IMG/VR virus record: IMGVR_UViG_3300025771_000189
Coordinates: 1 to 23,656 of that record
DNA length: 23,656 nucleotides
Source: a virus
Direction: 5' to 3' (one strand)
Part shown: positions 1,334 to 18,417 of the stretch, piece after piece
Numbering within the stretch: the first letter of the stretch is position 1
Layout: the number at the start of each line of letters is the position of its first letter
Made by a program: the position numbers and the translations under genes
Notes under the pieces: model-generated
What the model was told of the DNA's origin: nothing
The model's database searches: none
Seen by the model: the letters and a program-made list of their open reading frames with translations, nothing else

Positions 1334-3517
1334 TTAAAGAGCTGAGATGATAAAAGCTAGGAGTTGTTCGTATCGTACAGACATCTTAGTGTGTTTGGTA
1401 AAACCTTCTGTTTCTTCATCTTTAAAAAGCCACTCACCATTTTCATCTTGTTTAGACCACCAAGTATTTTCACCTAGTATAGCATATCGATAAGCATCTA
1501 AACCTTCAGCTTCAAAAGCAGCTTTTACATCCTGTGCAATAACACCTATATGAATACGAGCATCGTCACCTTTCTTAACAACAGCATCTTTAAGCCTAAA
1601 CTTTTTCATTAAACCTTTTAAGGCAGTAGCAACTCTTAGTTCTGCTTCGCTTAGGTCTTCAATATCTTGTTTTAGATTACGATCAGAACCACTCCAAGCT
1701 CCTCCGTTAATATAACCGTTATCCCAAGTGTTACTAGCAGAACCTAAATCTACATTTGAATTAGGATTACTGTACATTGAGCCTGTGGGTTCTACACTAG
1801 CTTGAGCAGCAGAAGAACACGCTATGGTTATTCCAGCATTAGCACTGAAATCTCCGTCTGCAATATTTAATGTAACTCTTTCTCCATTTTCTTGGTATTG
1901 TAAGGACGCAGTGTTATTTCCTTGTGAAATTTTTATCCTACCACCAAGACCACTAGCGTGTTCGTTTTCTAATTGTAAATCTACATAAGCACTTGTTTGG
2001 TTACCTTTAGCGTATATAGTATCCTTTCCACTACCTCCATCCACAGTTAATTGATAAGAAGAATCCGCTAATGCTCCTGTTCCTATGTTGTTGTTAGTAT
2101 CGTTAACATTAAAAGTGGTATCTGCACTGTCTATCATTGTAGACTCCACAGCGTTAGCTGCTATCGTAAGTGAAGTAGAACCTGTAACATCACCAGTATG
2201 GGTAGCGTTAGTGACTTTAGCAGTGTTAGCAGTTACAGCTGTGTTGTTCGCTACCTCTGTGTCAAAGTCTGAAATGGTTGCTGCGGTCTGTGTACCTGTG
2301 TGATTAGCTCTGTTCTTTAAGTTAGCGTCTGTGTCGTTGACCGTTGCACCTGCTGCAATACCTGCAAGCTTCGTTTGTTCTGCATCGTCAAATTCATTAG
2401 TGTTAGGGTTGCTTTCATATAAGGTTTTAACATCCGCAGCTGTAGGAGAAGCACTACCATTAGCGGCAGCTGTAATCCTTCCTTGTGCATCTACTGTAAG
2501 ATTAGTCGCAGTATAAGAACCTGGAGTAACAGCAGTGTTGGCAAGCTTATCAGCAGTTATAGCATCATCAGCAATGTTAACTGTATTAATAGGACCACCT
2601 GCAACACCTGTCGCTAGAGTAGTAGCTATCTGAGCGTCTACATAAGTCTTGTTCGTAGCGTGACTACCACTAGCAGGGGCAATTAAACCTGTAACTTTAT
2701 CAACATTTTGAATATCATTTGTCTGCATATCCAAGTTACCTGACATAGAATCTCCACTCTTGTTAACTTGTAAAGCATCTTGTTGGTCTACATAACCTTT
2801 ACGAGCAGAGTGATCGCTACTAATAGGAGCACCTAGACCACTAACCATGTTACCTCCCATAGCCAAGTCACCTGTCATATTGTCCCCAGCTTTAGTAACT
2901 TGTAGTGCGTCTTGTCCGTCTACATAAGTCTTGTTAGTAAGATCATTACCTGTACTAGGAACAGCAGAGGAAGTGACTTTATTAGCACCCATGTCCAAGT
3001 TACCAGTCATCGTATCACCAGCAACATCAACAAAAGTAATATCTGCGTAGTTCTTAGTTACAGCATCTTGAGGGTTTGTAGGATCAGCAAGATTCTTAAT
3101 CTTAGCTAAATCAGCGTCGTAGTTCCCATCAACAGGGTCTTTGGTCATTGTGTTCTTACCACTACCTTCTTCTATCTCTTCGTTAAGATATAAGTTGTGT
3201 AAGTAAGCACGGTCTAGTTCTACTTCAGTAAGTACACTACCGTTCTCAAAGTCTACAAGAGCAGTATCAGATGCACTGTCTCTTTTAATTCTTATCCTAG
3301 CACCAGTCTCAGGAGCAGTAGTAAATCTGATAAGAGCAGAAGGAGATGTTATAATAGTGTAAGCTCCTGTAGAGACAGTATAAAACTTACCTCCTGGAGA
3401 ACTGCCTGTTGAATCGTCTAACTGTACAACTACATGAGTGTCATCAAGATAAGGAAAAGAAAATGCAAAGTCTGTTTGACCTGCTCCAACTGTGTAGTCT
3501 ACGTATGTATTAGCCAT
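1334..3517 (-). CDS. Tail fibre (T7 gp17-like) with C-terminal S74 intramolecular chaperone
   Basis: 727 residues against 553 in T7. Residues 1-120 match the T7 gp17 tail-attachment domain: a beta-rich start MANTYVDYTVGAGQTDFAFS, then the ENGSVLTEVELDRAYLHNLY segment. Residues 161-298 hold three tandem repeats of about 44-50 residues built on GD.M(T/S)G.LDM ... K.YVD. Residues 360-420 carry the common phage-fibre phrases EQTKLAGIAAGATVND and NRANHTGTQTAATISDFDT. The C-terminus (about 611-727) starts SDRNLKQDIEDLS and continues HIGVIAQDVKAAFEAEGL, the S74 peptidase / endosialidase-type chaperone that drives trimerisation and then cuts itself off, with Ser611 of the SD pair the expected cleavage residue. 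Mature fibre would then be about 610 residues. The receptor-binding part is probably residues 430-610. Confidence 0.93.
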   Translation of the reverse strand: MANTYVDYTVGAGQTDFAFSFPYLDDTHVVVQLDDSTGSSPGGKFYTVSTGAYTIITSPSALIRFTTAPETGARIRIKRDSASDTALVDFENGSVLTEVELDRAYLHNLYLNEEIEEGSGKNTMTKDPVDGNYDADLAKIKNLADPTNPQDAVTKNYADITFVDVAGDTMTGNLDMGANKVTSSAVPSTGNDLTNKTYVDGQDALQVTKAGDNMTGDLAMGGNMVSGLGAPISSDHSARKGYVDQQDALQVNKSGDSMSGNLDMQTNDIQNVDKVTGLIAPASGSHATNKTYVDAQIATTLATGVAGGPINTVNIADDAITADKLANTAVTPGSYTATNLTVDAQGRITAAANGSASPTAADVKTLYESNPNTNEFDDAEQTKLAGIAAGATVNDTDANLKNRANHTGTQTAATISDFDTEVANNTAVTANTAKVTNATHTGDVTGSTSLTIAANAVESTMIDSADTTFNVNDTNNNIGTGALADSSYQLTVDGGSGKDTIYAKGNQTSAYVDLQLENEHASGLGGRIKISQGNNTASLQYQENGERVTLNIADGDFSANAGITIACSSAAQASVEPTGSMYSNPNSNVDLGSASNTWDNGYINGGAWSGSDRNLKQDIEDLSEAELRVATALKGLMKKFRLKDAVVKKGDDARIHIGVIAQDVKAAFEAEGLDAYRYAILGENTWWSKQDENGEWLFKDEETEGFTKHTKMSVRYEQLLAFIISAL
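2624..3037 (-). repeat. Three tandem protein repeats in the tail fibre shaft
   Basis: These bases encode fibre residues 161-298 as three consecutive units (about 161-204, 205-248, 249-298). Each has a GD(T/N/S)M(T/S)G(N/D)L(D/A)M core, a variable linker, and a (N/R)K(T/G)YVD(G/Q/A)Q end. The third unit is a few residues longer. The DNA copies have diverged, so the repeat is old and kept at protein level. Such units usually form triple-stranded beta shaft segments in phage fibres. Confidence 0.8.
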
Positions 3518-3529
3518 GGTAATCTATTA

Positions 3530-6500
3530 TTAATTTGTTTGTTGTAAAAGTTCAAGCACTTCTTCTCGTTGCATCCCACCTTTTAAACCTGCTCTAGCTT
3601 TCATTAATGAAGAGTATTGTGCGTTTAACTCAGGATACTCTCTGAGCATCTGTCTTCTAGCTTCTTTCCTGTACTTAGTTAGAACGCTGTTTATCTGTTG
3701 GATACGAGGACTAGGAAGACCAGGTTCAGATTCTGGTGATAACCTTTGGTAGTTCCTTGACTTTATAAGTTTATTCAAGGTTTGCCTAAGAGAAAGACCA
3801 CGAAGTTTAACAGTCTTTAATAACTCTAACTGCCTATCGTTCGCTGATTGTCCTTTATCGTTTTCATACTCTAACAAATCTATCTGTCCACCTAAACTAG
3901 GAGGAGGGTTTCTAAAAGCATGATTCAAACTAGCCATCTCTGTTAGGATAGGATCGTTCTTTTTAGTTGATAATTGAATAGGATTAATAAAACCTGTACC
4001 CATCCATTGTTCTGCTACATATTCCTCTCCCAATATATTACGTTTAGTATCTAACGAACCACGCATACCTAGCTTACGTTTTACCGCATCCATGACAGAC
4101 CTTGTTTCTTTTATCGCTTGAGTATCGTAGTCAGCTGTTTGAGAAATTAAATTAGGAACTAATGAACCTGCATAATTTCTGCCTAACTTTTCTACATATC
4201 TATCAGGATCACCTAAAGCATCTGCCCACATTTGAATACCAGCTAAGTATGATTTGTTTGTAGCGTTTCTTGTTAGAGCTAATACCATTGATGTTGTAGC
4301 GTGTTCTAAAAGAGATTCATCAAAAGATGCTTCTTCTCTTATCCCTGTTTCTACTAAATCAGCTACAACACCTAACGGAGTTGCTAAAGGGTCAAGTCTT
4401 TGATAACTGAAATAAGTGTCTCCTATTTTAATGCTATAGGGTCTCCATCCAGTCGCCATTAAAGCTTCTTTTTCTCTTTCGTTACTAGGTCCACCTCCTG
4501 TTATGTATTCTCTATTATTAAAAGCAACGTCAATTAAGCCTCCTACAGTAAGTGCTCCTGTGACTACCTTACCTCTTGCCCTTGCTTTTAAGATAGGGTC
4601 TGCACTATTAAATTCAGCCAACAATCGCTGCCTTTCCTCTTTTAACACAGTAACAAAAGGAGTTCTCTCAAAAGCAAACTTTAAGATATTAGTAGGAGTA
4701 CGAACAAAAGGAACTACAAATCTCAAGTAAGGTATTTTGTTAGTGGCTTCTTGGATTACTTTACCTAATGTCTTGTCTTGTAATTCTTTAGTAAAGGTTA
4801 AGTACTGAGCTTCTTCCATTGAATACTGCATAAGTGCAGATGAATCAGGATTAAAGTTATCGTCCTTGTATTTGATGATAAAATCAGCTTTCTCTTTTCC
4901 TTTAAGACCTTGCTTATCTGCTATTAAAGAAGCTTCCCTAACAAGACCCTCCTCCGACATCATTCGTCCACCTTCAGTTACTATACCGTCAATAGTTTTA
5001 TTGATGTGTCCAGCTAATGCTTTAGGATCACGAATACCTTGTTGTATGCCTGACATAGCGGCTTTCATTCTAGCAGCCCTACGATAAGCTAATTGCTTAA
5101 AGAACTCATCAGAAGTTAACAGCAACCTACTGGGAAGTCTTATATAACTAGCGTATTTATCTATTGAATCTTTAGCTGAGTCGGAAACAAAACCACCTAT
5201 AGGAGATTCAGCTATACGCTGACCAGTTATAGAAGCTCGTTGACCTTCTTCAAAAGCACGGTTGGATGGGTCTAGTAAATTGTCTTGGTCTTTGAATGCT
5301 TGTTTTGCAAACTTACCTGCTTCCTTAAACATTTCACCGTCTGACCAAGAAGCTATAACAGCTTTGACTACATCCATGTTTCCACTCGCTATACCACCAG
5401 CAACAGCTTCTAAGGTGGTCATCACTTGAGTCAACGCATTACCCATGATATTAACCATCTGTGTCTTAGGGCCACTCAATATAGAGTTCATCCAGTATTC
5501 AGTAGGCATATCTAAGAAATGTTTACCTTGTGCTTTTTTAGCAGTCTTTAACAACCTAGCTAAACTACCCTCTAAATCGTCAGGATCAATATGCTCTCTT
5601 ACAAGGTTAACCATACGCTCAGGCTTCATGTTGCCAGAGTTATTAACAAACTCTTTGCGTATGCCTTCTATTTGCGTTTCAGCTTCATTAAGTCCTAGCT
5701 TACGCTTACCGAAACCTTCATCTCTAGCTTGTAAGGTAATAGCTGTTTCTCTTCCTATTCTACGATAAACATCTGCTACTGTTAATAGTTGTTGAAAAGC
5801 ATTCTTGAGTTTAGTTATAGATACATCACCGTAACCGTTGTCTTTAGCTTCTTGAGCTATCTCGCTAACATTCTGTATAAGTGCTTTACCTTGTTCTCTG
5901 TAAGATTGTTGTGTTATACGAATATCACGCAATACTTTCTCAGCGTCTTCTCCTTCTTTAGCTTGTGCTCTAACAGTTGTTTCGATTGCTTCGTCTATAT
6001 CTGTAATGGCATCTGTAACTGTTACTTTCTCAGGATTAGCTTCGTAGTATTTCTCTAGTAAATCTTTTAGTACAACAACATCACCATCAGTCTCTAATGC
6101 AAACTGCGGTAGTCTAGGTTTACCTCCTTTTAACAACTCATCTGCATACCCACGGAACTTATCAGGAACAGCACTAAGGAACTCATCCTCTTTACCTTTC
6201 TTAAAGTCAGGCAGTTCGCTAGGTCTTTTCACAGAAGCTAAGCCTTCGTCTGCTTGTTTTGTAGCTGTTATGATATTGTTTTTAACTTCTACATTACCTT
6301 TACCAAATACATTTTCTATAAGACTAACATAATCAGCTGTCTTTTTGTTGTGTTGGAAACCTGCTTTAGTTTCTTTTCCGACTCCGCTTTTACTTCCTTC
6401 ATATACAGAGAAGTATGCTTTACCGTTTCCTTTAACTGCGTCAAAAGCTTGTTCAACAACTAACAGCTGGTTTTCTTTTTCCTTAATAACATTAAGTACA

Positions 6501-8611
6501 TTATTAGAAATAGAAGCGTCTACTTGACCCCCTTGTACTGCTTGAGCTACCTCTTTGTTGTGTTGTGCCGATCTGTTGAAAGGATCGTAAACTTTTAAAT
6601 CTACTCCTTCTTTTTTCAACATATCAACTGCGTTATCAAACTTACCTCCTCCTATATCCACCATCTTCATTCCTTTAGTGAATATTCCAGCTTTCTTTAG
6701 TTTGTTGTAAGCGGCTGGTAGTTTAGCTACATTTATAGAAGTAGCAGCGGAAGTTATTTCTTGTTCAGGTGCACTCCAAAGATTAGGTCTTGTTTGATAA
6801 TAACGACCTTCAGCTACAAGTTTAGCCTTACCCATGTACGATCCTCTACTTGCAGATATGATCTGTGCAGAGTCTCTAAGTACTTTGTTTAATAAAGTGC
6901 TGTCACCTTTAACACCGAATAGTTGATATACTGCATCTACAATCTTTTGAAAGATATTGCGTTTATCATCTGATGGTATTCTTCTTAGTATTTGTTGTAG
7001 TTTTAAATCTGTGAAAACACCTACGAGAAACTCATCTAGGTCTTTAAACTCGTACACTCCTTTACCTACAGCTGGATCAAATACATCCTTACCTTCAAAA
7101 GCATATAAATCTTTAATCTTTTCAGAAGCTAATTTAAATGACTTAGCAAGTTCTCTAATAGGTTTAGGTGCAGCTTTATTGTTAATAACATTATCTATAT
7201 TAGACAACACTATTGACCGTTCTTTACCTCCCTGACTTACCCAAGCGTTTATTTTTTTAGCAGTAACACCGTGTAGTATTTCGTGTACTAATGTCTGTTC
7301 GTCTGCACCTTCATATAACTCAATCCTATCCTCTGATGGTTTATAGACACCTGTTATAGAACCCATATCATCAGCATCGCCTCGCACAGTAGTTATATCA
7401 CCTTCACTTACTTCAGGTTTGTAAAATACTCGTACATCTTGATCGGCTTCGTCTTTTATGATGATATTTAAATCTTTAGCTAGTTGTTGTACTTCAGGTG
7501 TGTCAGCATTTTTAGACAATTCATCTAAAGTATTTCTAACGGTTGCTGCTTTTTGTACTCCCTCTACTGGTGCACCGCCTGTCTGTATAGCTCTACCTTC
7601 TTCTTCAGCTTTCCTACCCTTCAATAAAAAGTCTTTTGTTTTATCATCTATACGACCAGCAAAGATACCAGACCTTCTTGATAAACCTGGTTCAGCGATG
7701 TCACCTCTAAAACCTGCGTTTACCAATTTAGTCGCTGCTCCTTTTAATGGTGGAGATATTTCAAACTGTTCGTATATATTTGGATTTCTTACAAACTCAT
7801 TAACAGCTTGCGATGGATAATCAAAACCTAACCAATCTTCTTTAGCCAACGCTTTTAAGAAACTTCTATACTTAGGTTTAAATTGATCTAAAGCTCCTAA
7901 CACTTCATCATGGTCTGCTTCCATATCTAAGTGCTCAAACCATTCATCTATGATGTCTCTATCAAATTCATCGATTAATTCTGGACCTCTAGCTATAGAA
8001 GCTAAGTCTTGTTGCAACCCTGTATCTACTACTGCCTGTGCTTGTCCGATTGCGTCCTTACCTTCTCCTTTAGCTTTGCGTCCTTCCTTAATAGCTTTAA
8101 GTGATTTAACGAACACACCAGCTACAGCTTCAAGACCTAGACCTTCCAACACATTCTTCATGCGTCCCTCTAACTCACCCTCGTCTTCATCGTAAGCTAA
8201 GAACTCAGTAACTGGATTCTGTAACTCTGGTACTTGTTGGATGAGATTAGACAGTCTAGCTTCCTGTCCGTTAAAGAAAGTGAAGTCAGTAGCAGCACCT
8301 GCAACAACACCTTTAGTAACAGTACCTGCTTTAGCTAATCTACCTGCTTTACCTGCGAGACCAAACAAAGGAATGAAACCTGTAGCAAACTGTGATATAC
8401 CTTCTACAGCACCGCCTGCCATAGTCTTAGAAGTACCAAGGAATCTAGTATCATAGTCAGGTAGTACATCAAAAGATAAGTAGTCTGCTAGGTTGTAAGC
8501 ACCTTGAAACGCACCTTCTATACCACGAAACGGAGCAGCTAATACATCGCCTGCTATATCAAAAAAGTCGTTCTCTTCTTCCTCGTTGTTTATATCTTCT
8601 GGTAGTGCCAT
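3530..8611 (-). CDS. gp16-like internal virion (ejection) protein with metallopeptidase-like and methyltransferase-like domains
   Basis: 1693 residues against 1318 in T7 gp16. It holds the last and longest place in the core-protein set, between gp15-like and tail fibre. I see no lytic transglycosylase motif at the N-terminus. Residues 60-110 are Gly/Ala-rich and hydrophobic. Residues 440-447 read TLVHEILH, a zinc-peptidase HEXXH motif, with a possible third ligand in DLDEFL (Glu527). Residues 605-787 look like a Rossmann methyltransferase: VDIGGGKFDN (651-660), VYDPFNR (674-680), SISNNVLNVI (700-709). Residues 1030-1420 carry ILSGPKTQMVNIMGN, RFVVPFVRTPTNILKFAFER and GWRPYSIKIGDTYFSYQRLD, phrases I remember from very large phage 'polyvalent' virion proteins. 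The role is probably to enter the cell with the DNA and build the trans-envelope channel. The gene begins four bases after the gp15-like stop without a clear Shine-Dalgarno. Confidence 0.88.
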   Translation of the reverse strand: MALPEDINNEEEENDFFDIAGDVLAAPFRGIEGAFQGAYNLADYLSFDVLPDYDTRFLGTSKTMAGGAVEGISQFATGFIPLFGLAGKAGRLAKAGTVTKGVVAGAATDFTFFNGQEARLSNLIQQVPELQNPVTEFLAYDEDEGELEGRMKNVLEGLGLEAVAGVFVKSLKAIKEGRKAKGEGKDAIGQAQAVVDTGLQQDLASIARGPELIDEFDRDIIDEWFEHLDMEADHDEVLGALDQFKPKYRSFLKALAKEDWLGFDYPSQAVNEFVRNPNIYEQFEISPPLKGAATKLVNAGFRGDIAEPGLSRRSGIFAGRIDDKTKDFLLKGRKAEEEGRAIQTGGAPVEGVQKAATVRNTLDELSKNADTPEVQQLAKDLNIIIKDEADQDVRVFYKPEVSEGDITTVRGDADDMGSITGVYKPSEDRIELYEGADEQTLVHEILHGVTAKKINAWVSQGGKERSIVLSNIDNVINNKAAPKPIRELAKSFKLASEKIKDLYAFEGKDVFDPAVGKGVYEFKDLDEFLVGVFTDLKLQQILRRIPSDDKRNIFQKIVDAVYQLFGVKGDSTLLNKVLRDSAQIISASRGSYMGKAKLVAEGRYYQTRPNLWSAPEQEITSAATSINVAKLPAAYNKLKKAGIFTKGMKMVDIGGGKFDNAVDMLKKEGVDLKVYDPFNRSAQHNKEVAQAVQGGQVDASISNNVLNVIKEKENQLLVVEQAFDAVKGNGKAYFSVYEGSKSGVGKETKAGFQHNKKTADYVSLIENVFGKGNVEVKNNIITATKQADEGLASVKRPSELPDFKKGKEDEFLSAVPDKFRGYADELLKGGKPRLPQFALETDGDVVVLKDLLEKYYEANPEKVTVTDAITDIDEAIETTVRAQAKEGEDAEKVLRDIRITQQSYREQGKALIQNVSEIAQEAKDNGYGDVSITKLKNAFQQLLTVADVYRRIGRETAITLQARDEGFGKRKLGLNEAETQIEGIRKEFVNNSGNMKPERMVNLVREHIDPDDLEGSLARLLKTAKKAQGKHFLDMPTEYWMNSILSGPKTQMVNIMGNALTQVMTTLEAVAGGIASGNMDVVKAVIASWSDGEMFKEAGKFAKQAFKDQDNLLDPSNRAFEEGQRASITGQRIAESPIGGFVSDSAKDSIDKYASYIRLPSRLLLTSDEFFKQLAYRRAARMKAAMSGIQQGIRDPKALAGHINKTIDGIVTEGGRMMSEEGLVREASLIADKQGLKGKEKADFIIKYKDDNFNPDSSALMQYSMEEAQYLTFTKELQDKTLGKVIQEATNKIPYLRFVVPFVRTPTNILKFAFERTPFVTVLKEERQRLLAEFNSADPILKARARGKVVTGALTVGGLIDVAFNNREYITGGGPSNEREKEALMATGWRPYSIKIGDTYFSYQRLDPLATPLGVVADLVETGIREEASFDESLLEHATTSMVLALTRNATNKSYLAGIQMWADALGDPDRYVEKLGRNYAGSLVPNLISQTADYDTQAIKETRSVMDAVKRKLGMRGSLDTKRNILGEEYVAEQWMGTGFINPIQLSTKKNDPILTEMASLNHAFRNPPPSLGGQIDLLEYENDKGQSANDRQLELLKTVKLRGLSLRQTLNKLIKSRNYQRLSPESEPGLPSPRIQQINSVLTKYRKEARRQMLREYPELNAQYSSLMKARAGLKGGMQREEVLELLQQTN

Positions 8612-8615
8612 AGTA

Positions 8616-10757
8616 TTAATCTATTTCGTTTAAAGCGTTTTTAAAAAGATTCCTTTGATTCCTAATAAATTCCAATACATCCTCTTCTCCTATCTTAGTA
8701 GCTTTCTTAACCACATCGTTGAAAGTTTTATTAGATTCTCTTTCGCTTTTGCTTTTATCAAGTAAAGGTATTAATTCTAAAATGTCTGCTTTTGATACTA
8801 AAGGAAATTGAGAAGAGTTGAGCAACAACGGATCAAATCTAATACCATAAGGAGTAACAGGTTGCTCTTCAAGTAAAGCCTCTCCTAATAGTCCTTTAGC
8901 GGCTTGTACCTGAACTAAAGAATTTAAAGCTTCTTCTCGTTCTTTTTTTGTAAACTCAACCCTTTTTATTTCTTTTCCTACAGAACCTCCAAAACCTGAT
9001 CTACTACTATAATATTGTTTAGGTTGTTGTGCTTTAATTTTAGGTATTTCACCAGTAGCTATTAACCTTAGTCTAGTTATTGTTTCCCCATCTGTTTTCC
9101 ATAGATTCTGAAAAGCTTTCTTTCTTTCTTTTGCTTCTATATTAGGGTCTCCAAAAACACTCAAGTCATTATTTAAGCTTAATTGTTTAGCTTCCTCGTC
9201 GTTAAAAACAGAAGAAAAAACACCTGGTTTACTTGCCTCTTTGGATTGTGCTACTTTTATTTTAACTTGTTCTTTGTCTGTTAAGAATTTAAGTCTAGAT
9301 TTTAAAGCGTTCTCTTGTTCTCTTTTGTATTCTTTCTTGGTAGTCCTAATAAAATCTTTTAGCTGCCTAGTCACTTCAGCTCTGTCTGAACCTATAGGAC
9401 TACTTAACAGACTATTTAATTGATCTTGAATTTCAGTTTGAAAAGAATCCATGTAAAAGTTCTGTATATTCACTAACTCTTCGTCTCCCATTAAAACATC
9501 ATCTGCTAATTGAGTGCTTGTTATTATAGTTTCATAAGCTGTGTTTAAATCTTTTAAATTAAAATCAATAGCTTGAGCAGGTCCGAAAGGGTCTCTTAGA
9601 ATTTTATTCATTCTAAAATCTTTTGGATCAATATCAGTTTTAATAAAATCATCCACATTACGTCTTAACTGTGCTAATCCTATTTGATCGGTACTAAAAG
9701 CTTCTTCTTGTTTAACAGCGAGGATTAAATTATCTATACTATCGTATGTGTTACCATTGTAAGTTCCTTCTCCGTTTATCTCTATATCAGTATGGGCATT
9801 TTGAAACTCTGCTACTTTTTGCTCTACTAAATCTACTCGTTCTTTATCTTCTAATTTACGAACAGCTTCAGAAGTACGCTCGATCATATTTTCATAACCG
9901 TCATATTCGATTTCTGTCATCTTAGCAGCCCCAATGTTTATGTTCTTACTAGCCCACAATAACAAGCTATCAGCTTTTTCTTCCATTCCATTTTTAGCTA
10001 AGTTCTCGAATACTTTTCCCAAAAGATCACGTTGTTCCGCTGCACTAAACGAATTAAGATTTTCCCAAGCCTCAGACAACGAAGCAGCTGTCACCTCGTC
10101 ATAATCTCCTAAATTACTACCCTCTTTAGCTAATTCGTAGAAAACACTAGTAGTACCGAAACCTGTATCACCTTTAGCTATTCGACTTTTTTGTGCGTCG
10201 TATTGCCTAACAAGAGGTAAAATCTGTGGGTTTATTGCTTGTTGTAAACCTTCTCGTGCAAAGCCTGACTCAGATAAACCAGGATTATTTTCCACAAACT
10301 GTTGTTGAACATTAGCTATTATATCAGAAGTACCTAAGTCTTCGTCTCCTTCTTCTGGATTATCTAATCTACTGTAGACTTGTTCCATTAACAAACGACT
10401 AGAAGCTTGTCCTACTGCTCTCAATTTCCTCTTCTGATTAACAGGAGAAGTAAGCCAACTCATCGCACCTTTTCTTACTTGCTTATCAAACTCTCCTTCT
10501 GTCTTTTGAAGCATCGCTTGAATCTCTTCAGGACTCTTCCTTGATAACTCATCTTCAAATTGTTCTGCTTCTATATCGGCTACCTGTGTGTACTGCTGTA
10601 AGATAGGATTAACCTGTGACAAAGCATCAGCAAGGTCCATCAACTTATTCCTTGGTGCTCGTACCTGTGCTACACTGTACTGACCTGCTCGTTGAATAGT
10701 AGGTTGAATGCCTGGAACTGCACCTCCTAATCCTTGTACTTGTACTCGTTCTGCCAT
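8616..10757 (-). CDS. gp15-like internal virion protein
   Basis: 713 residues (T7 gp15 is 747). It is almost wholly helical, rich in Gln, Glu and Lys, without signal peptide or membrane segment. In T7, gp15 forms part of the internal core and is ejected to build the DNA tunnel through periplasm and inner membrane with gp14 and gp16. The call rests mainly on size, composition and place between the gp14-like and gp16-like genes; I cannot point to a catalytic motif. The start is well supported: the ATG overlaps the gp14-like stop as TAATG, and AGGAG lies six bases upstream. A helical run around residues 575-640 (KIKAQQPKQYYSSRSGFG then charged) breaks the pattern with a flexible Ser/Gly stretch. 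Confidence 0.85.
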   Translation of the reverse strand: MAERVQVQGLGGAVPGIQPTIQRAGQYSVAQVRAPRNKLMDLADALSQVNPILQQYTQVADIEAEQFEDELSRKSPEEIQAMLQKTEGEFDKQVRKGAMSWLTSPVNQKRKLRAVGQASSRLLMEQVYSRLDNPEEGDEDLGTSDIIANVQQQFVENNPGLSESGFAREGLQQAINPQILPLVRQYDAQKSRIAKGDTGFGTTSVFYELAKEGSNLGDYDEVTAASLSEAWENLNSFSAAEQRDLLGKVFENLAKNGMEEKADSLLLWASKNINIGAAKMTEIEYDGYENMIERTSEAVRKLEDKERVDLVEQKVAEFQNAHTDIEINGEGTYNGNTYDSIDNLILAVKQEEAFSTDQIGLAQLRRNVDDFIKTDIDPKDFRMNKILRDPFGPAQAIDFNLKDLNTAYETIITSTQLADDVLMGDEELVNIQNFYMDSFQTEIQDQLNSLLSSPIGSDRAEVTRQLKDFIRTTKKEYKREQENALKSRLKFLTDKEQVKIKVAQSKEASKPGVFSSVFNDEEAKQLSLNNDLSVFGDPNIEAKERKKAFQNLWKTDGETITRLRLIATGEIPKIKAQQPKQYYSSRSGFGGSVGKEIKRVEFTKKEREEALNSLVQVQAAKGLLGEALLEEQPVTPYGIRFDPLLLNSSQFPLVSKADILELIPLLDKSKSERESNKTFNDVVKKATKIGEEDVLEFIRNQRNLFKNALNEID

Positions 10758-11359
10758 TATCTTCTCCTACCTGTCATTGCTTGTGTATAACTCTGGGCTG
10801 CTGTAGTTCCTGTTTTTGATGATGAACCCATCCTACTTTTAATATCAAGTCCTGTTCTGTATCCACTAAGTCCACCGCTGATAGCACCTAAACCTGCTGT
10901 TAATAAACTAGGTCTATCTATAGGTTGATTAATACTGATAAGTCTTTGTTGAGAAGCTAATCCAGCTTGTTCTAATCCTAGCTGTGTACCTAATGCACTC
11001 ATCTCTTGTTGTCTTAAAGTTGCCGCTCTATACCCTGCTTCCTGTCTAGTATAGTCATCCATCAAAGCTTGAACACTAGCACCTGCAACACCTGCTTCCC
11101 CTGCTGAAACCCTAGCTCTAGCTAACGCTTCTTGGGATTTCCTACTGACTTGTTCAAGTTCCCTAGCCGTAGCTTCTTGCTCTTGTGCTTGTCGCATCCT
11201 AATTGAGGACTGTTCCTGTAACGCTCTTTGACGCTCCGCTGCTGCTGATTGGGCTTGATAGGCTGCTTGTGCTTTAGCTTGTTGTCTTTGCCCTGCATAT
11301 CCTGCAATAGATGAACCTACTGATGCTGTTATAGCTGCTATTGATATTGGGTCACACAT
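10757..11359 (-). CDS. gp14-like internal virion protein
   Basis: 200 residues (T7 gp14 is 196). N-terminus MCDPISIAAITASVGSSIAG is hydrophobic and small-residue rich, followed by a long Ala/Gln/Arg helix (about residues 22-85) and a second Gly-rich hydrophobic patch near 150-170 (LLTAGLGAISGGLSGY). The C-terminus is basic (TGRRR). This is the usual gp14 plan. In T7, gp14 is ejected first and inserts into the outer membrane. Upstream AGAGAGGA seven bases before the ATG is a good ribosome binding site. The start lies one base after the gp13-like stop, and its own stop overlaps the next ATG. Confidence 0.88.
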   Translation of the reverse strand: MCDPISIAAITASVGSSIAGYAGQRQQAKAQAAYQAQSAAAERQRALQEQSSIRMRQAQEQEATARELEQVSRKSQEALARARVSAGEAGVAGASVQALMDDYTRQEAGYRAATLRQQEMSALGTQLGLEQAGLASQQRLISINQPIDRPSLLTAGLGAISGGLSGYRTGLDIKSRMGSSSKTGTTAAQSYTQAMTGRRR

Positions 11360-11360
11360 A

Positions 11361-11801
11361 TTACTTCCTCTCTATCTTAAATGCCTTATAACCAGGGATA
11401 TTGCAATCCTGAAAAGTAGCCCCTAACCAAGTCAACCACTTGACGCTTAGTGTATTAGCTTCCATGACATAGTTAGTTAAGTAATCAAATCCATCCATTA
11501 AATCGTCTATCCACATCTGTGATTCTTTAACAAACTTCTTCTTTACTTTATAAAAATTCCTTGTACCTAGCAACCAACAAACTCCAATGTTCCCTCTAGG
11601 ACTCACTCCAAAGCTCGCTAACAATCCGTCTTGATCTGTCTTGACGCTATAGCATTTACTGCTTGATTCAAAAGATCCGTACACAGCGTCTCTAGGGTGG
11701 TGCATTAAACCTATACATTCCATCATATCTTCTTCCCGTAAGTCATCATATAACAAAGGAGCGTCTTCCACTGCATAAGCTTTTTCTATCTTAACCTCCA
11801 T
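11361..11801 (-). CDS. gp13-like protein (GNAT-like fold), virion assembly
   Basis: 146 residues (T7 gp13 is 138) in the gene 13 position between tail tubular B and gp14. The layout, with a small beta strand and GVCWLLGT followed by a helical stretch KKKFVKESQMWIDDLMD and then WLTWLGATFQD, resembles gp13 and other GNAT-fold phage proteins. T7 gp13 is needed for efficient core assembly; no acetyltransferase activity is claimed here. A longer version from a TTG at 11834 is possible, but the ATG at 11801 has AAGGAG eight bases upstream and reduces overlap with the tail tubular B gene to 11 bases, so I use it. Confidence 0.8.
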   Translation of the reverse strand: MEVKIEKAYAVEDAPLLYDDLREEDMMECIGLMHHPRDAVYGSFESSSKCYSVKTDQDGLLASFGVSPRGNIGVCWLLGTRNFYKVKKKFVKESQMWIDDLMDGFDYLTNYVMEANTLSVKWLTWLGATFQDCNIPGYKAFKIERK

Positions 11802-14800
11802 AGCGTCTACTCCTTGATATGATTGTAGATTCAAACTCAGCAGATAGTAACTTCACTGGTAAAGCACTAGAAGATTTAATTTCGATAGTGGCATCATTAG
11901 GTTGAGCTTGTACAGCAAACTTAAAGAATCCAGTCTCAGGTGTGAATTTATTAAGGGTACTGACAGAGGCTAACAAACTTGGGTTGTAGGTGTAAGTGTA
12001 GGTATCTCTAAATTTAGGTGTGACTTCCACATTAAAGTGTCCTGTCTCTGAGTATTCAATACTACCGTTACGAATCGTTTGATAAGTATAATCAGATGCA
12101 GATCGTCCTCCTCTTTCTGTAGGTTGCTTTAAGTTCTGCTTAGAGAACCTATATAACATATCGTATTCAAAGCCTACAAAGAAGTCATATTGACTAATGT
12201 ATTCGTAACCATTTGGACTCCACTCAGGTGCAGAATCAATAAGCCCAGTAGCATCGTTCCAATATAAAGAACCAGCAGCATCAGGAAGGATAGTAGGTGA
12301 TGAAGTATGACCTGTAGTACAAAGATATAAACCTCCTGTAATGTAAGGGGTTGTTAAAGACCAAGCTAACGCTTGTATAGTTGTAGTGATTTCACTCCAA
12401 TAGTCTTCCCAATTTGCACCCACTCCAGGTTCTTTAGCTGCGTCTGCTGTGTGGTTTTGTGTGCATTTATATGTCTTATTGTTATGCGTTACATGACTAG
12501 AGTAAGATACAAAACTAGCGATAAGACCACTCACAGCTGCTCTAGTAGGGTCTGCGTTATCTATAGTCAATGTCCTTTTGTTTCCGTTCTTAGTATAGAA
12601 AGACATACCGCTTTTAAATTGAAAACCATTAGCACCTACGATCAAACTGACATTAGTAAGGTTAGTACCGTTAATACTTAAAGGAGTAGGAGTTCCTGTA
12701 GGATACCAACCACCTAGACCTACATAAGAAGAATTACCGTCTACTCTGTGGTCTAACAATAAAGCATAGTTCTTACCTGTGTCCACCAATCCATTCTCCA
12801 TTGGTATCTTTTCTAGATAAGTACCGTCACTGTCTGTGGTAATTACATACAAAGTAGATTCAATAAAGTAAAAACTTCTTACATCTTTATTAAAAGTAAA
12901 GGTCATCCAGGAACTCTGTATCTTCTCTCTGCCTTGCCAAAAGTATTTATATACAAACAACTTCTTATAGTCGGAGTCTGTCTGTACAATAATCATATTC
13001 TCTGATGCACTACCTTCCATCCTTACGATGTTAGAAGGGATGTACTTATTAACTTGTTCTGTTATCTCAGTTGCTCCGTATGTTTCTGTGTTATTATCAA
13101 CAGTGTATTCAAGCAAACCTTCAAAGCTATTTCTTTTAAAGTTAAAGTATATGTGACTACTAAGTGCTAACGGTCTTATACTTTCTGATACATCATACTC
13201 AGTAACTGGAGATATAGTAACAGTCTTAGGAGTTAACAAATCCCTACCTCTAAGCACAAATTGAGTCTTAGCAGAGAATAACATGAGCTTCTCTTGGAAC
13301 GCTTGTGCGTATTTAAGAAGACTGATCTTAGTGTGAGATATTCCTACATCTATAGGAGCAGAATCTAGTAAGGTTTGTGTTGTGGTCCTAAAGAAATTAA
13401 AGTATTCATCTGCTTCTGAGAACACAATGGAATCATTTGTTAACAATCCTAACCTGTTCTTAAAGAAGAAGATATCGTTAATTCGTTTTTCTGCTCCTTT
13501 TAAATACTCAATACCTGAAGCCCATTCCTTCGTGTTACTAGGTACTGTTGTCTGTGCTTTCCAATAAGTAGTATTCGTAGGTAAGATTGAACCACTGGAA
13601 GTATGAGACTTGATGCAAGAATAATTAGAACCTGAATATGTAACAAACTGTCCGCTTTCAGATACAAAAGAAGGGTATGGATTAGTATAATCATCACCTG
13701 ATTCTCTTTGTGTCCAATTAATTAATTGCAAGTCAAAACTTGTAATCTTACCTGTAGCTGGAGAAGGGATTAATCTGACAGGCATAGTTTCAATATCTAT
13801 CGCACTGTCTATTCCTGACAACTTATCTGCCGATGTTAAATCGCTGTTCCAACCTGATGTCTCTATCCAAGAACCTTCTCCGTAATCTTCATTATCTTTT
13901 GTTTTAAATTGCACGTAGTAATCATCTTGTTCTAATTCAGCTTCGCCAATTACCTTAACCCTAAAGCGATTAAAACAAGATTTAGGAAGGTCAGTAATAC
14001 TGTCCACTTCTTTATATATTACTCCTAATCCTTGATTTGCTAATCCATCAGAAACTCTTATTTGAAAGTCTATAGTGTTAGATATTTTTATAACACTTCC
14101 TTGTTGAGTTACTGTTACACCTACGAAATCTCCAGGTACATTTATTGAAAGCGTAATTGGGAATGTAATAGACAAAGGATTAACAGTAGCTATTACAGCA
14201 CCTGTAGAATCTAAAGTCACACTGCTATCGTAGATATCGGTTCTAGTTTGGTGTTTCTTAAAATTTCCAAAATACCTTTTAGTCCACTGCCTTACTTGCC
14301 TTATTGTGTACTTAGTGTTTACACCTGATGTATTGGATGGTTGGTAATCAGCTCCTTCATGTGTTAGTTCAAAAGATGACACTGAACCGTCTCCTCCAAA
14401 TATAACCCAACCCTTAGCTCCTGAAGCTGTTAGCAACCCTGTTCCAGAATCGTATTGATCTATGAAGAACTCATAAGTAAAAGCAGTACCTCTCCAACTA
14501 CTTCCTCCTGTAGGATGCCAACCTGAACCGCCTGCTATATTAACTGATTTAACAGCTTTAGCAGAACTAACATAATCAGTTAAACAGGTTGTAAGGTCTT
14601 TAGCGATGTATTCAGTATCTGCGTATTTACCATCACTGTGTCCCGCTTTTCCACTTATATAAGTAGCAGGAGCATCACCGTGTGTAGTGTAATTATGTTC
14701 GCTTCCATTTGGAAAACTACTACCAATAGGAACTAACTTTCCTGATAAAAAAATACTATAAGCTTTATCGTAGTCTCCAAGCTTAACAAATACTAAAGCG

Positions 14801-15267
14801 TCTGTCTCTAGGTCTGCTGTTCTAAACTCTTCGTCTGTGTTTCTTTGTATAGTCTTCTGTGTATTAACAAGAAAGGTAGAGTCTGCTATTGTTAAAGCTC
14901 TTAGGTCTTGTAAAGGATTAGATGTACTTAGATAGTTAGAAGCTGCAATAGAAGGAACGTTAATATGTATTGAAGTCTTAACATTAGCAGTAAGATCAAA
15001 AGCTTTTAATCCGTTAACAGAGTCATAGGTAATAACATATTTATTCTGTTCATCTCTATCTACATAGTGACTAAATAAATTAGAGCTAACATTAGCACCT
15101 AAGTCAGTATCATATAAGAACCTACTATTAGGTCTTTTTACTAATCCCTCTACTACAGTGGACCAAGCGTTTACTTGTTCATCACACTGTCCAGGGTATC
15201 TTAAATTGTCAGGCTGTTGTGATACACCTTGGGCAAGGTTGGGAAGGCTGGTGTTGAGCAAAGGCAT
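11791..15267 (-). CDS. Tail tubular protein B (T7 gp12-like nozzle), enlarged
   Basis: 1158 residues against 794 in T7. The N-terminus MPLLNTSLPNLAQGVSQQPDNLRYPGQCDEQVNAWSTVVEGLVKRP (read in two pieces) is the hallmark start of gp12-type tail nozzle proteins. Middle landmarks are RINDIFFFKNRLGLLTNDSIVFSEADEYFNFF (about 595-626) and FSAKTQFVLRG (664-674). The extra length includes three short inserts of about 40 residues that look like carbohydrate-binding modules (about 531-572, 917-962 and 966-1005). The protein forms the hexameric distal tail tube and contacts the fibres, so the inserts would sit near the receptor end. The ATG overlaps the tail tubular A stop as TAATG, without a strong Shine-Dalgarno, suggesting coupled translation. 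Confidence 0.94.
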   Translation of the reverse strand: MPLLNTSLPNLAQGVSQQPDNLRYPGQCDEQVNAWSTVVEGLVKRPNSRFLYDTDLGANVSSNLFSHYVDRDEQNKYVITYDSVNGLKAFDLTANVKTSIHINVPSIAASNYLSTSNPLQDLRALTIADSTFLVNTQKTIQRNTDEEFRTADLETDALVFVKLGDYDKAYSIFLSGKLVPIGSSFPNGSEHNYTTHGDAPATYISGKAGHSDGKYADTEYIAKDLTTCLTDYVSSAKAVKSVNIAGGSGWHPTGGSSWRGTAFTYEFFIDQYDSGTGLLTASGAKGWVIFGGDGSVSSFELTHEGADYQPSNTSGVNTKYTIRQVRQWTKRYFGNFKKHQTRTDIYDSSVTLDSTGAVIATVNPLSITFPITLSINVPGDFVGVTVTQQGSVIKISNTIDFQIRVSDGLANQGLGVIYKEVDSITDLPKSCFNRFRVKVIGEAELEQDDYYVQFKTKDNEDYGEGSWIETSGWNSDLTSADKLSGIDSAIDIETMPVRLIPSPATGKITSFDLQLINWTQRESGDDYTNPYPSFVSESGQFVTYSGSNYSCIKSHTSSGSILPTNTTYWKAQTTVPSNTKEWASGIEYLKGAEKRINDIFFFKNRLGLLTNDSIVFSEADEYFNFFRTTTQTLLDSAPIDVGISHTKISLLKYAQAFQEKLMLFSAKTQFVLRGRDLLTPKTVTISPVTEYDVSESIRPLALSSHIYFNFKRNSFEGLLEYTVDNNTETYGATEITEQVNKYIPSNIVRMEGSASENMIIVQTDSDYKKLFVYKYFWQGREKIQSSWMTFTFNKDVRSFYFIESTLYVITTDSDGTYLEKIPMENGLVDTGKNYALLLDHRVDGNSSYVGLGGWYPTGTPTPLSINGTNLTNVSLIVGANGFQFKSGMSFYTKNGNKRTLTIDNADPTRAAVSGLIASFVSYSSHVTHNNKTYKCTQNHTADAAKEPGVGANWEDYWSEITTTIQALAWSLTTPYITGGLYLCTTGHTSSPTILPDAAGSLYWNDATGLIDSAPEWSPNGYEYISQYDFFVGFEYDMLYRFSKQNLKQPTERGGRSASDYTYQTIRNGSIEYSETGHFNVEVTPKFRDTYTYTYNPSLLASVSTLNKFTPETGFFKFAVQAQPNDATIEIKSSSALPVKLLSAEFESTIISRSRRYGG

Positions 15268-17103: not shown

Positions 17104-17208
17104 TTAAAGTGTATTTAGTATAATAATTCCACCTAAACAAAGAACAGTCAAGACAATAGCTTTCTCCTTCTTTGTAAGTGAGTTATAAAATTTTAATAGT
17201 TTATTCAT
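17104..17208 (-). CDS. Small single-span membrane peptide (34 aa) overlapping the lipoprotein gene
   Basis: Read by hand: MNKLLKFYNSLTKKEKAIVL then TVLCLGGIIILNTL. The ATG overlaps the lipoprotein stop as ATGA, and no Shine-Dalgarno precedes it, so translation would depend on coupling. The first 17 residues are polar and basic (including KKEK at 13-16), and residues 18-34 form one hydrophobic segment ending at the C-terminus, predicting N-in topology. Function unknown. Being next to a spanin-like gene, it may be a lysis accessory such as a small holin, antiholin or membrane anchor, but this is inference. Its short length means chance cannot be ruled out. Confidence 0.6.
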   Translation of the reverse strand: MNKLLKFYNSLTKKEKAIVLTVLCLGGIIILNTL

Positions 17209-17621
17209 TTGTTTTGTGCTTTATTGTGAACATAGCGTGTGTAGATCAACGGTACTACATTCCAAAGAATAACACCAACAAGGCAGAGTTTCAAAAAACC
17301 ATATATCTCATCCAACATAGAATCAAAGAATCCATTATCCATCTCTTCGTTAAGTTGTTGTTGTACAAGTTTTTGTACATCTCCTTCAGATAAAGCTTTT
17401 ACTTTACTAGCTAATCCTTTGTTCTCCTCCATCAACTTAGCTCCTTCTCCTACTCCCCATCCCAAGGCAGCACCACCAGCAGCAGCACCAGGACCACCAA
17501 GGCTACCAACAGTAGCTCCACCCACACTCCCTGCTAACGGATAAAAAGAAGCCTTGGAACATCCACCTAAAAGAACCAGAACCAACACTGGCAAGAAAAA
17601 AGATGGAGTCCAAGGCTTCAT
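17205..17621 (-). CDS. Lipoprotein with C-terminal membrane segment, candidate unimolecular spanin
   Basis: 138 residues. N-terminal signal MKPWTPSFFLPVLVLVLLGGC has a lipobox LGGC with the lipidated Cys at 21. Residues 31-59 are a glycine-zipper-like run with repeated GxxxG spacing. Residues 62-105 are helical and charged. Residues 109-127 form a membrane segment (FLKLCLVGVILWNVVPLIY), followed by a basic tail RYVHNKAQNK that would face the cytoplasm. A lipid anchor at one end and a membrane helix at the other is the architecture of unimolecular spanins such as T1 gp11, which join outer and inner membranes at the end of lysis. The unusual point is its place between scaffold and capsid genes. 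It could instead be a superinfection-exclusion or envelope lipoprotein. The start codon lies in a palindrome and no Shine-Dalgarno is seen. Confidence 0.8.
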   Translation of the reverse strand: MKPWTPSFFLPVLVLVLLGGCSKASFYPLAGSVGGATVGSLGGPGAAAGGAALGWGVGEGAKLMEENKGLASKVKALSEGDVQKLVQQQLNEEMDNGFFDSMLDEIYGFLKLCLVGVILWNVVPLIYTRYVHNKAQNK

Positions 17622-17646: not shown

Positions 17647-18417
17647 TTATAAGTAATTATGACTCGCTGCTATGCGTCTGTCAATCTCTTCGTGGTAAGC
17701 TTTGTCACCACTTTTGTATCGAGGATCAGACATTGCACGAGCAAGTTCTTGATTAGATTTAAAAGGCATTGTTGATGAACCACTTACAGCACCTTGTACT
17801 AACTTAGGAGTAACTCCATTCTCTGCTTTAAATTGTGCGTATAATCCTTTGGTAGCTAGTTTAGCTTGTTCAACTGTACCATTTTGTACGATTTCATCAA
17901 AAGTATTTACTTCTTCAGGTGATAAATTATTAGCAGCCCATTCAGCCATTTGATCCCAGTTACCTTCAGTAACAGCTTTGATACTACCTTCTTCACTTTG
18001 TTGTAGTGCTTGTTGACCAGCAGCGTAGCTATCTACTAACTCCTTCGGTAGCCCAATCTTAGCAAGATTCTTATAGGTCTCTTCAGATATAACACCGTCA
18101 TTCTCAAAGAACTCTTTACTAGCTTCCACAATAACATCATTAGTATTCGTATCTTCCTCTTGGTTGTCATCTTGTTCATTCTCGTTGGTTTCCTCTCCTT
18201 CTTCTTGTTCTTGCTCTTTAGCCCCTGCTCCCAATTTCTTTTCAAGTTCACTATAGGCATTAGCCATGTCTTCAGGACTCTTGAACTTTTCAGGTAACCA
18301 TTCAGGTCTATCCTCTTGCGTTTGTTCTTCAGATATTGCATCAACAGCTTCTTCTGACTCTGGGTCAATCTCCTGTGGTGCTTTCTCATTTATCTCTACT
18401 CGGTGGAATTCTGCCAT
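17647..18417 (-). CDS. Scaffold / capsid assembly protein (T7 gp9-like)
   Basis: 256 residues, strongly acidic, between portal and capsid genes. Residues 10-95 are nearly all Glu, Asp, Gln and Asn with a conserved-looking WLPEKFKSPEDMANAYSELE (40-59). The 'P.KFKS.EDLA.AY..LE+KLG' phrase is common in scaffold proteins of podoviruses. The C-terminus ends LARAMSDPRYKSGDKAYHEE then IDRRIAASH, a basic helix that in scaffolds of this kind binds the inside of the capsid shell. It directs procapsid assembly and leaves before or during packaging. It starts nine bases after the portal stop. T7 gp9 is about 300 residues, so this is a short version. Confidence 0.92.
   Translation of the reverse strand: MAEFHRVEINEKAPQEIDPESEEAVDAISEEQTQEDRPEWLPEKFKSPEDMANAYSELEKKLGAGAKEQEQEEGEETNENEQDDNQEEDTNTNDVIVEASKEFFENDGVISEETYKNLAKIGLPKELVDSYAAGQQALQQSEEGSIKAVTEGNWDQMAEWAANNLSPEEVNTFDEIVQNGTVEQAKLATKGLYAQFKAENGVTPKLVQGAVSGSSTMPFKSNQELARAMSDPRYKSGDKAYHEEIDRRIAASHNYL

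Follow-up and report, generated by a model that had tools for sequence, protein, structure and literature searches.

Metallopeptidase (MPTase) domains of polyvalent proteins have been described by Iyer et al. (2017, PMC5512222) as a core composed of an N-terminal helix, three strands, a helix with HEXXH, and a helix with Glu. The founder of the group comprises residues 2130 to 2448 of the N4 virion RNA polymerase, and the HExxH in the C1 domain of this polymerase was also noted in a structure preprint (PMC12633501). Among ejection proteins, T7 gp16 carries a transglycosylase in its N-terminal residues 1 to 156 (PMC8954989), and the region Asp268 to Asp528 of PhiM1 has been published as endolysin/exotransglycosidase-like (PMC11440229). 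We analyzed the virus record IMGVR_UViG_3300025771_000189 (23,656 bases, in full referred to as the window), which stems from a marine virus of bacteria, with a focus on the gp16-like ejection protein encoded there. Residues 353 to 600 of this protein very probably form a zincin-type metallopeptidase domain, and this domain belongs to an exchangeable cargo region that is flanked by constant N- and C-terminal parts. Zincins are already known in polyvalent proteins; the carrier here is a gp16-like protein, and new is a border motif found in relatives with a zincin of the HELWH type.

Candidate zincin domain of the gp16-like protein

The following features, all encoded on the minus strand, define the protein and its predicted active site:
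3530 to 8611, minus strand: coding sequence of the gp16-like ejection (internal virion) protein, 1693 aa (phrog_6651, T7-like gene order)
6812 to 7555, minus strand: probable zincin-type metallopeptidase domain, residues 353 to 600 (alignment A2, AlphaFold2, VIA, profile matches)
7271 to 7285, minus strand: HEXXH motif H443 to H447, two predicted zinc ligands and the predicted general base E444 (sequence, alignment A2)
7031 to 7033, minus strand: E527, likely third zinc ligand (invariant in 34/34 rows; in the helix after the HEXXH helix of the model)
7343 to 7345, minus strand: invariant Y423, second core strand (alignment A2, model)
7052 to 7054, minus strand: invariant Y520, just ahead of the E527 helix (alignment A2)

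The 1693-aa protein was called gp16-like because the gene order is that of T7 and because residues 1262 to 1503 match the 'internal virion protein' profile phrog_6651 (E=2e-55). Position and profile agree with the T7 gp16 family, the gene being located between that of a gp15-like protein and that of the tail fibre. On the minus strand of the window, the order is head-tail adaptor, major head protein, nozzle, gp13, gp14, gp15-like, gp16-like, tail fibre, and gp18-like, with a T7-type tail fibre and with the gp18-like protein as packaging protein. A tblastn search with the gp16-like protein matched 97 phage records, none of them more than 60% identical, and a profile of its C-terminal part had no match at E<=1 among PDB sequences.

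A preliminary description of this DNA had drawn attention to TLVHEILH at residues 440 to 447 and DLDEFL at residues 524 to 529, and both are present exactly as given there. The span named in it, positions 7031 to 7285, corresponds, on the minus strand, to H443 to E527, the plus-strand reading being interrupted by stops. The codons of H443, E444, and H447 occupy positions 7283-7285, 7280-7282, and 7271-7273 (minus strand), respectively, and E527 follows H443/H447 at a distance of 80-84 residues. Because 105 of 20,000 shuffled versions of the whole protein contain an HEXXH, the motif by itself is no proof, and conservation must decide. Among 74 loci retrieved in one scan of viral contigs, 45 had the complete HEXXH in the frame that matched. 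Alignment A2 consists of 33 of these 45 loci plus the window (34 rows); identity, duplication, or truncation led to the omission of the other 12, all of which keep the HEXXH and a downstream Glu. All four residues for which invariance had been proposed as a check (H443, E444, H447, and E527) are kept in 34/34 rows, and Y423 and Y520 are likewise invariant (34/34). This conservation extends over rows of other types that mostly share 17-27% identity with the window type (47% for related HEILH rows), the three main zincin sequence types being only about 20-27% alike. Together with the shuffle rate, the invariance in A2 rules out that the HEXXH is a chance product of composition.

The same pattern emerged from a larger collection of 76 distinct profile-matched segments. 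Among these, 68 contain HEXXH, and in all 68 an E[FYL] helix motif follows at a distance of 44-108 residues (median 81; permissive regex). Of the eight segments with no HEXXH, five lie at a contig edge and begin past the motif, a frame break interrupts L017, and in L096 and L101 (relatives are designated by locus numbers) HEXXH is located just upstream of the start of the profile match. No complete domain having lost a ligand was seen.

AlphaFold2 was run on the 34-row alignment A2 and yielded a model with a predicted local distance difference test (pLDDT) value of 76 and a predicted template modeling (pTM) score of 0.79. In the model, whose numbering plus 352 equals that of the protein, N-terminal helices are followed by three strands, a helix (86-106) with the HEXXH, and a helix (173-182) with E527. 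This order of elements fits the MPTase core given in PMC5512222. The predicted fold, a check suggested in the preliminary description, has a zincin layout, with the HEXXH helix preceding the Glu helix. The top VIA structure match was chain 8vb2_A of the PhiM1 pre-infection ejectosome (residues 288-516, Z 9.1, root mean square deviation [rmsd] 4.5, 147 residues aligned), followed by anthrax lethal factor with its metalloproteinase domain (about 148 residues aligned, Z about 5.5-5.9, rmsd about 5), where a VIA Z below 8 can reflect a common arrangement and families off the VIA list stay possible. The invariance in A2 and the predicted fold both support the metallopeptidase reading with E527 as the likely third ligand, and the domain would be expected to bind zinc.

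Relatives in described phages

When the A2 profile was compared with PDB sequences, 9sfn_G ('Internal virion protein', 1337 aa) was found with E=1.9e-4, and entries of the N4 virion RNA polymerase were found by hmmsearch with E=0.0076 at residues 2220-2361; both matches run across the HEXXH and the later Glu. A PDB search by single sequence gave nothing useful. The virion RNA polymerase profile phrog_2206 was matched by 12 of 31 members and by the middles of three of nine relatives, in the latter case within profile positions 2025-2249, and hhalign of the zincin profile against the phiKMV/PhiM1 pair gave E=1.5e-7.

The gp37 protein of the Pseudomonas phage phiKMV (1337 aa, L164) is placed like gp16, its neighbors being a gp15-like lysozyme protein and the tail fibre, and has HEAVH at residue 423 as well as KELVAWGLTD, with a profile E value of 4.5e-9 among eight proteins tested. 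It differs from the window protein in its label, 'internal virion protein with endolysin domain', and in being unmatched by the window-type N- or C-terminal profiles. PhiM1 gp43 (TEP; 8vb2, L165) shares the fold over residues 288-516, as described above, and has HEAAH at residue 385 and a later HEFISQLF, whereas its sequence match is weak (domain E 0.02). T7 gp16 resembles the window protein in gene order, in its role by position, and in being a large ejection protein; the N-terminal transglycosylase, in contrast, is T7's (PMC8954989). No HEXXH was found in the gp16-like proteins of two pelagiphages, Roseobacter phage CRP-114, Syn5, and P-SSP7.

With the polyvalent MPTases of PMC5512222, the window domain has in common the HEXXH helix, the later Glu helix, and the three-stranded core, and also the company it keeps, namely fusion with ART, methyltransferase, and LPD domains in a gene beside virion genes. 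The carrier is different, being a T7 gp16-like ejection protein here; the terms 'gp16' and 'internal virion' are absent from the main text of PMC5512222. A second difference is a border motif linked to one zincin type, which the accessible part of that paper does not describe.

The phiKMV domain alone matches 118 of 50,697 phage records, among them virion RNA polymerases at about 30% identity, and the PhiM1 domain matches 57 phage records. Several of the records listed carry the labels 'endolysin domain' or 'peptidoglycan lytic exotransglycosylase'. HEXXH and fold suggest that the domains bearing endolysin or exotransglycosylase labels in phages of the phiKMV and PhiM1 types are zincins; if this is true, these domains, one of them structurally solved, are zinc proteases. 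In one scan of a cellular genome collection, no kin of the HELWH zincin were confirmed.

Exchangeable cargo and border motif

Outside the zincin domain, the gp16-like protein is divided into the following segments:
8021 to 8611, minus strand: constant N-terminal domain, residues 1-197 (74-92% identical to 12 relatives with differing middles)
7556 to 8020, minus strand: first exchangeable segment, residues 198-352 (comparison with relatives; mostly lost in L010)
6227 to 6784, minus strand: probable class I S-adenosylmethionine (SAM)-dependent methyltransferase domain, residues 610-795 (plasmid protein match, phrog_14016)
6203 to 6220, minus strand: SELPDF, loose copy of the junction motif, residues 798-803, at the border to the C-terminal domain (loose regex)
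3533 to 6223, minus strand: constant C-terminal domain, residues 797-1693 (alignment A4, 59-96% identical to 10 relatives)

The exchange is most clearly seen in comparison with L012. The DNA of the two genes is 89% identical over nucleotides (nt) 1-549 and 94.8% identical over nt 2419-5082 (2664 nt), with nothing alignable between nt 549 and 2419; L014 and L015 behave likewise. The exchange breakpoints are located at nt 547-551 and nt 2399-2419, the C-side one adjoining SELPDF. The L012 protein has 1212 residues and is devoid of the zincin, and its own cargo had no similar counterpart among phage records. From 104 frames with both constant domains, 60 distinct middles were obtained (set 1). 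The zincin profile matches 53 of them; L157 is among the seven unmatched. This locus encodes a gp16-like protein of 2221 residues with a middle of 1634 residues and a HELAH outside the reach of the zincin profile.

In the parts outside the zincin and the constant domains, 154 segments of at least 60 residues formed 16 groups by single linkage. A Pfam search over the middles of ten relatives identified, one each, ART-PolyVal (6e-9), LPD37 (5e-19), GYF_2 (2e-6), and HTH_40 (3e-11). In the window, segment 610-795 has 33% identity (E=2e-16) with a plasmid protein that carries the annotation class I SAM-dependent methyltransferase, and it also resembles Vibrio phage proteins; its AlphaFold2 model reached a pLDDT of 40 and was not used. 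As in polyvalent proteins, several unrelated enzymatic domains are found in one protein encoded near virion genes. The exchange with other enzyme-like parts suggests a delivered tool package rather than a simple cell-wall cutter.

Two further observations concern individual relatives. An ART-like segment is positioned right after the constant N-terminal domain in the HELWH-type loci L014, L050, and L217; the assignment is based on the Pfam ART-PolyVal match in L014, 91% identity of L050 to L014 over the middle, and similar sequence in L217. The ejection proteins of L083 and L253 contain two zincins of different type each (HESTH and HEILH in L083).

The location of the domain bears on the second part of the preliminary interpretation, according to which the metallopeptidase takes the place of the usual transglycosylase. 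While a zincin metallopeptidase in the gp16-like protein is upheld, its part as a stand-in for the transglycosylase is not borne out, the zincin being an insert of the middle region, which near-identical phages exchange, and absent from full-length relatives such as L012. Positional replacement was likewise rejected as a candidate on the grounds that close relatives lack the insert. Pfam detected no transglycosylase in the window protein at E<=1, a weak negative by which a distant one could be missed, because Pfam is also blank on phiKMV gp36, which is annotated as a lysozyme. No endolysin profile of Pfam or PHROG matched the window zincin. A zincin fold and a lysozyme-like domain can coexist, since PhiM1 has both, the first in its gp16-like protein and the second, as reported, in the neighboring OEP protein (PMC11440229).

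The pattern F-[AST]-[DE]-[LM]-P-x-[FYL] was first seen on reading the linkers of HELWH-type proteins. Its sites are located after the constant N-terminal domain, between the first cargo and the zincin, and on the C-terminal side of the zincin. In set 1 (60 distinct proteins), from which the regex was derived, 34 strict matches were present, all of them in linkers (34/34), as compared to about 0.1 expected by shuffling, and the strict motif occurred in 18/18 HELWH proteins versus 0/42 others; a slightly wider pattern gave 34 matches versus 2.1 expected. A later set of 53 further distinct frames was then fetched, some of them closely related to the first set. Here, the strict motif was found in 32 of 48 HELWH proteins and in none of the five others, with 54/54 matches in linkers. 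A loosened pattern had a linker match in 45/48, and 84 of its 89 matches fell in linkers versus 17.9 if evenly spread. In 257 other open reading frames (112,237 residues) of 81 HELWH loci, the motif had 0 matches.

Copies within one protein agree at 72% of the defined positions versus 12% in the flanks, a difference inflated by regex picking, and codons at matching residues agree in 61% versus 50% expected from codon usage. As far as sequence comparison goes, the peptide is conserved, the underlying DNA much less. Since codons match little beyond chance, DNA identity at the joints is not what is kept. The HELWH border motif could be a self-processing site, and its copies would be the first candidate cut sites known to us. 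In PMC5512222, 'cleavage site' appears in a reference only. In the open-access literature, which leaves subscription papers mostly outside, we found no paper on an internal virion protein with HEXXH, on a link between a polyvalent protein and an internal virion protein, or on an autoproteolytic phage ejection protein.

Possible functions and neighboring genes

The explanation that we prefer, and to which as a whole we assign roughly even credence, is a polyvalent-type zincin in a gp16-like carrier that releases cargo by self-cleavage. As suggested by the gp16 position, the gp16-like protein would be packed in the head and ejected together with the DNA. The zincin would bind zinc and cut the chain to which it belongs at the domain borders, either within the virion or following entry, and cleavage would free the neighboring cargo, here the methyltransferase-like domain, from the DNA-translocating C-terminal part. 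Self-processing as such, which presupposes delivery, zinc binding, catalysis, and cutting, is plausible while falling somewhat short of probable; it was proposed in general by Iyer et al., with host targets as an alternative (PMC5512222). More tentatively, the ejection protein may be a self-dissecting polyprotein in which each zincin type recognizes its own border peptide and cuts on or before entry. Cargo enzymes would then be released into the host, and the C-terminal part would stay to move the DNA.

Several results weigh against this explanation. Foldseek with the zincin model gave no match at E<=0.001, and the zincin was unmatched when the window protein was compared with Pfam (E<=1) and NCBIfam (E<=0.01). 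Because these curated models are unmatched, the zincin was filed as related to, and not as a member of, the curated MPTase family; of 31 middles, only two weakly matched DUF6782, 'putative metallopeptidase' (best E 0.081). Packaging without processing is reported for the related N4 virion RNA polymerase (PMC5512222). As to the motif, the associations are not independent, given a regex taken from the first set and kinship among members, and Fisher values overstate them. The strict form is lacking in 16 of the 48 later HELWH proteins, several of which are diverged and have AEMPDF, AELPSF, or similar variants. For the HE[ASG]TH type, another border motif, [DENAV][FYM][ASML]P[EGKP], was present in 10/10 plus 1/1 mixed proteins of the first set, with 23/23 matches in linkers, and was rejected as a general claim after being found in only 1/4 later proteins. 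For the window's own HEILH/HEMLH type, neither linker reading nor a loose regex revealed a border motif beyond a single loose copy: the loose core occurs once, at the C-side border, in four of eight such proteins, among them that of the window (L002), and one further protein shows a linker match that is unrelated.

Among the alternatives, the one that fares best, unlikely though we consider it, is that the zincin itself is the effector and cleaves a host protein (a defense, transcription, or envelope factor) after ejection, so that exchange would track host proteins. The metallopeptidase shares one exchangeable slot with ART, HTH, and methyltransferase-like cargo, several divergent zincin types coexist, with two each in L083 and L253, and host targets are one of the options of Iyer et al. 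(PMC5512222), all of which would fit this role. It leaves unexplained, however, a border motif tied to the HELWH type within the same polypeptide, and a host target is yet to be named.

Improbable, in our estimation, is that the zincin fold serves the core for packing or docking and has little or no catalytic activity, in which case the junction motif would be a binding or linker motif or the mark of a recombination joint. The PhiM1 domain does form part of the TEP hub (PMC11440229), and the exchange breakpoints (nt 547-551 and 2399-2419) are near linkers, the C-side one at SELPDF. Yet four catalytic residues are invariant in 34/34 rows amid otherwise divergent sequence, and the motif copies match in amino acids (72% versus the 12% of flanks, inflated as stated) with codons barely above chance (61% versus 50%).

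Very improbable, and the least favored of the three roles raised in the preliminary description, is the cutting of peptidoglycan cross-links at entry in replacement of T7's transglycosylase: the lack of a Pfam transglycosylase in the protein and the published or annotated endolysin labels of PhiM1 Asp268-Asp528 (PMC11440229) and phiKMV gp37 speak for it, but those very regions hold HEXXH and a downstream Glu, the fold resembles a protein-cleaving zincin, the nearest relatives lose the domain yet keep the backbone, and PhiM1 has a separate lysozyme-like domain in OEP (PMC11440229).

If release of cargo by self-cleavage is true, some T7-like phages have a core protein that doubles as injection machine and vehicle for exchangeable early effectors, with the zincin as release tool, and the general prediction of MPTase processing in polyvalent proteins gains named cut sites that can be tested with peptides. 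Cargo swapping between cut sites would let phages change early weapons with the injection machine unchanged.

Two neighboring genes complete the T7-like arrangement:
8616 to 10757, minus strand: gp15-like protein, tunnel protein by position, 713 residues (gene order)
10757 to 11359, minus strand: gp14-like protein (PF24072 T7_gp14, E=1e-29)

Of 157 relative loci, 110 have a homologue of the gp15-like protein. A small protein encoded at 17205-17621 (minus strand), with the major head gene on one side and the gene at 17647-18417 on the other, has a hydrophobic start and LLGGC, lipoprotein-like by eye; Pfam gave no match for it. The nozzle (gp12-like) protein (11791-15267, minus strand) has CBM_5_12 matches at residues about 926-948 (E=3e-11), which is unusual for a nozzle and may indicate a possible binder of surface sugars. 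The tail fibre (1334-3517, minus strand) ends in a C-terminal Peptidase_S74 chaperone domain (E=2e-13), of a kind that self-cleaves.

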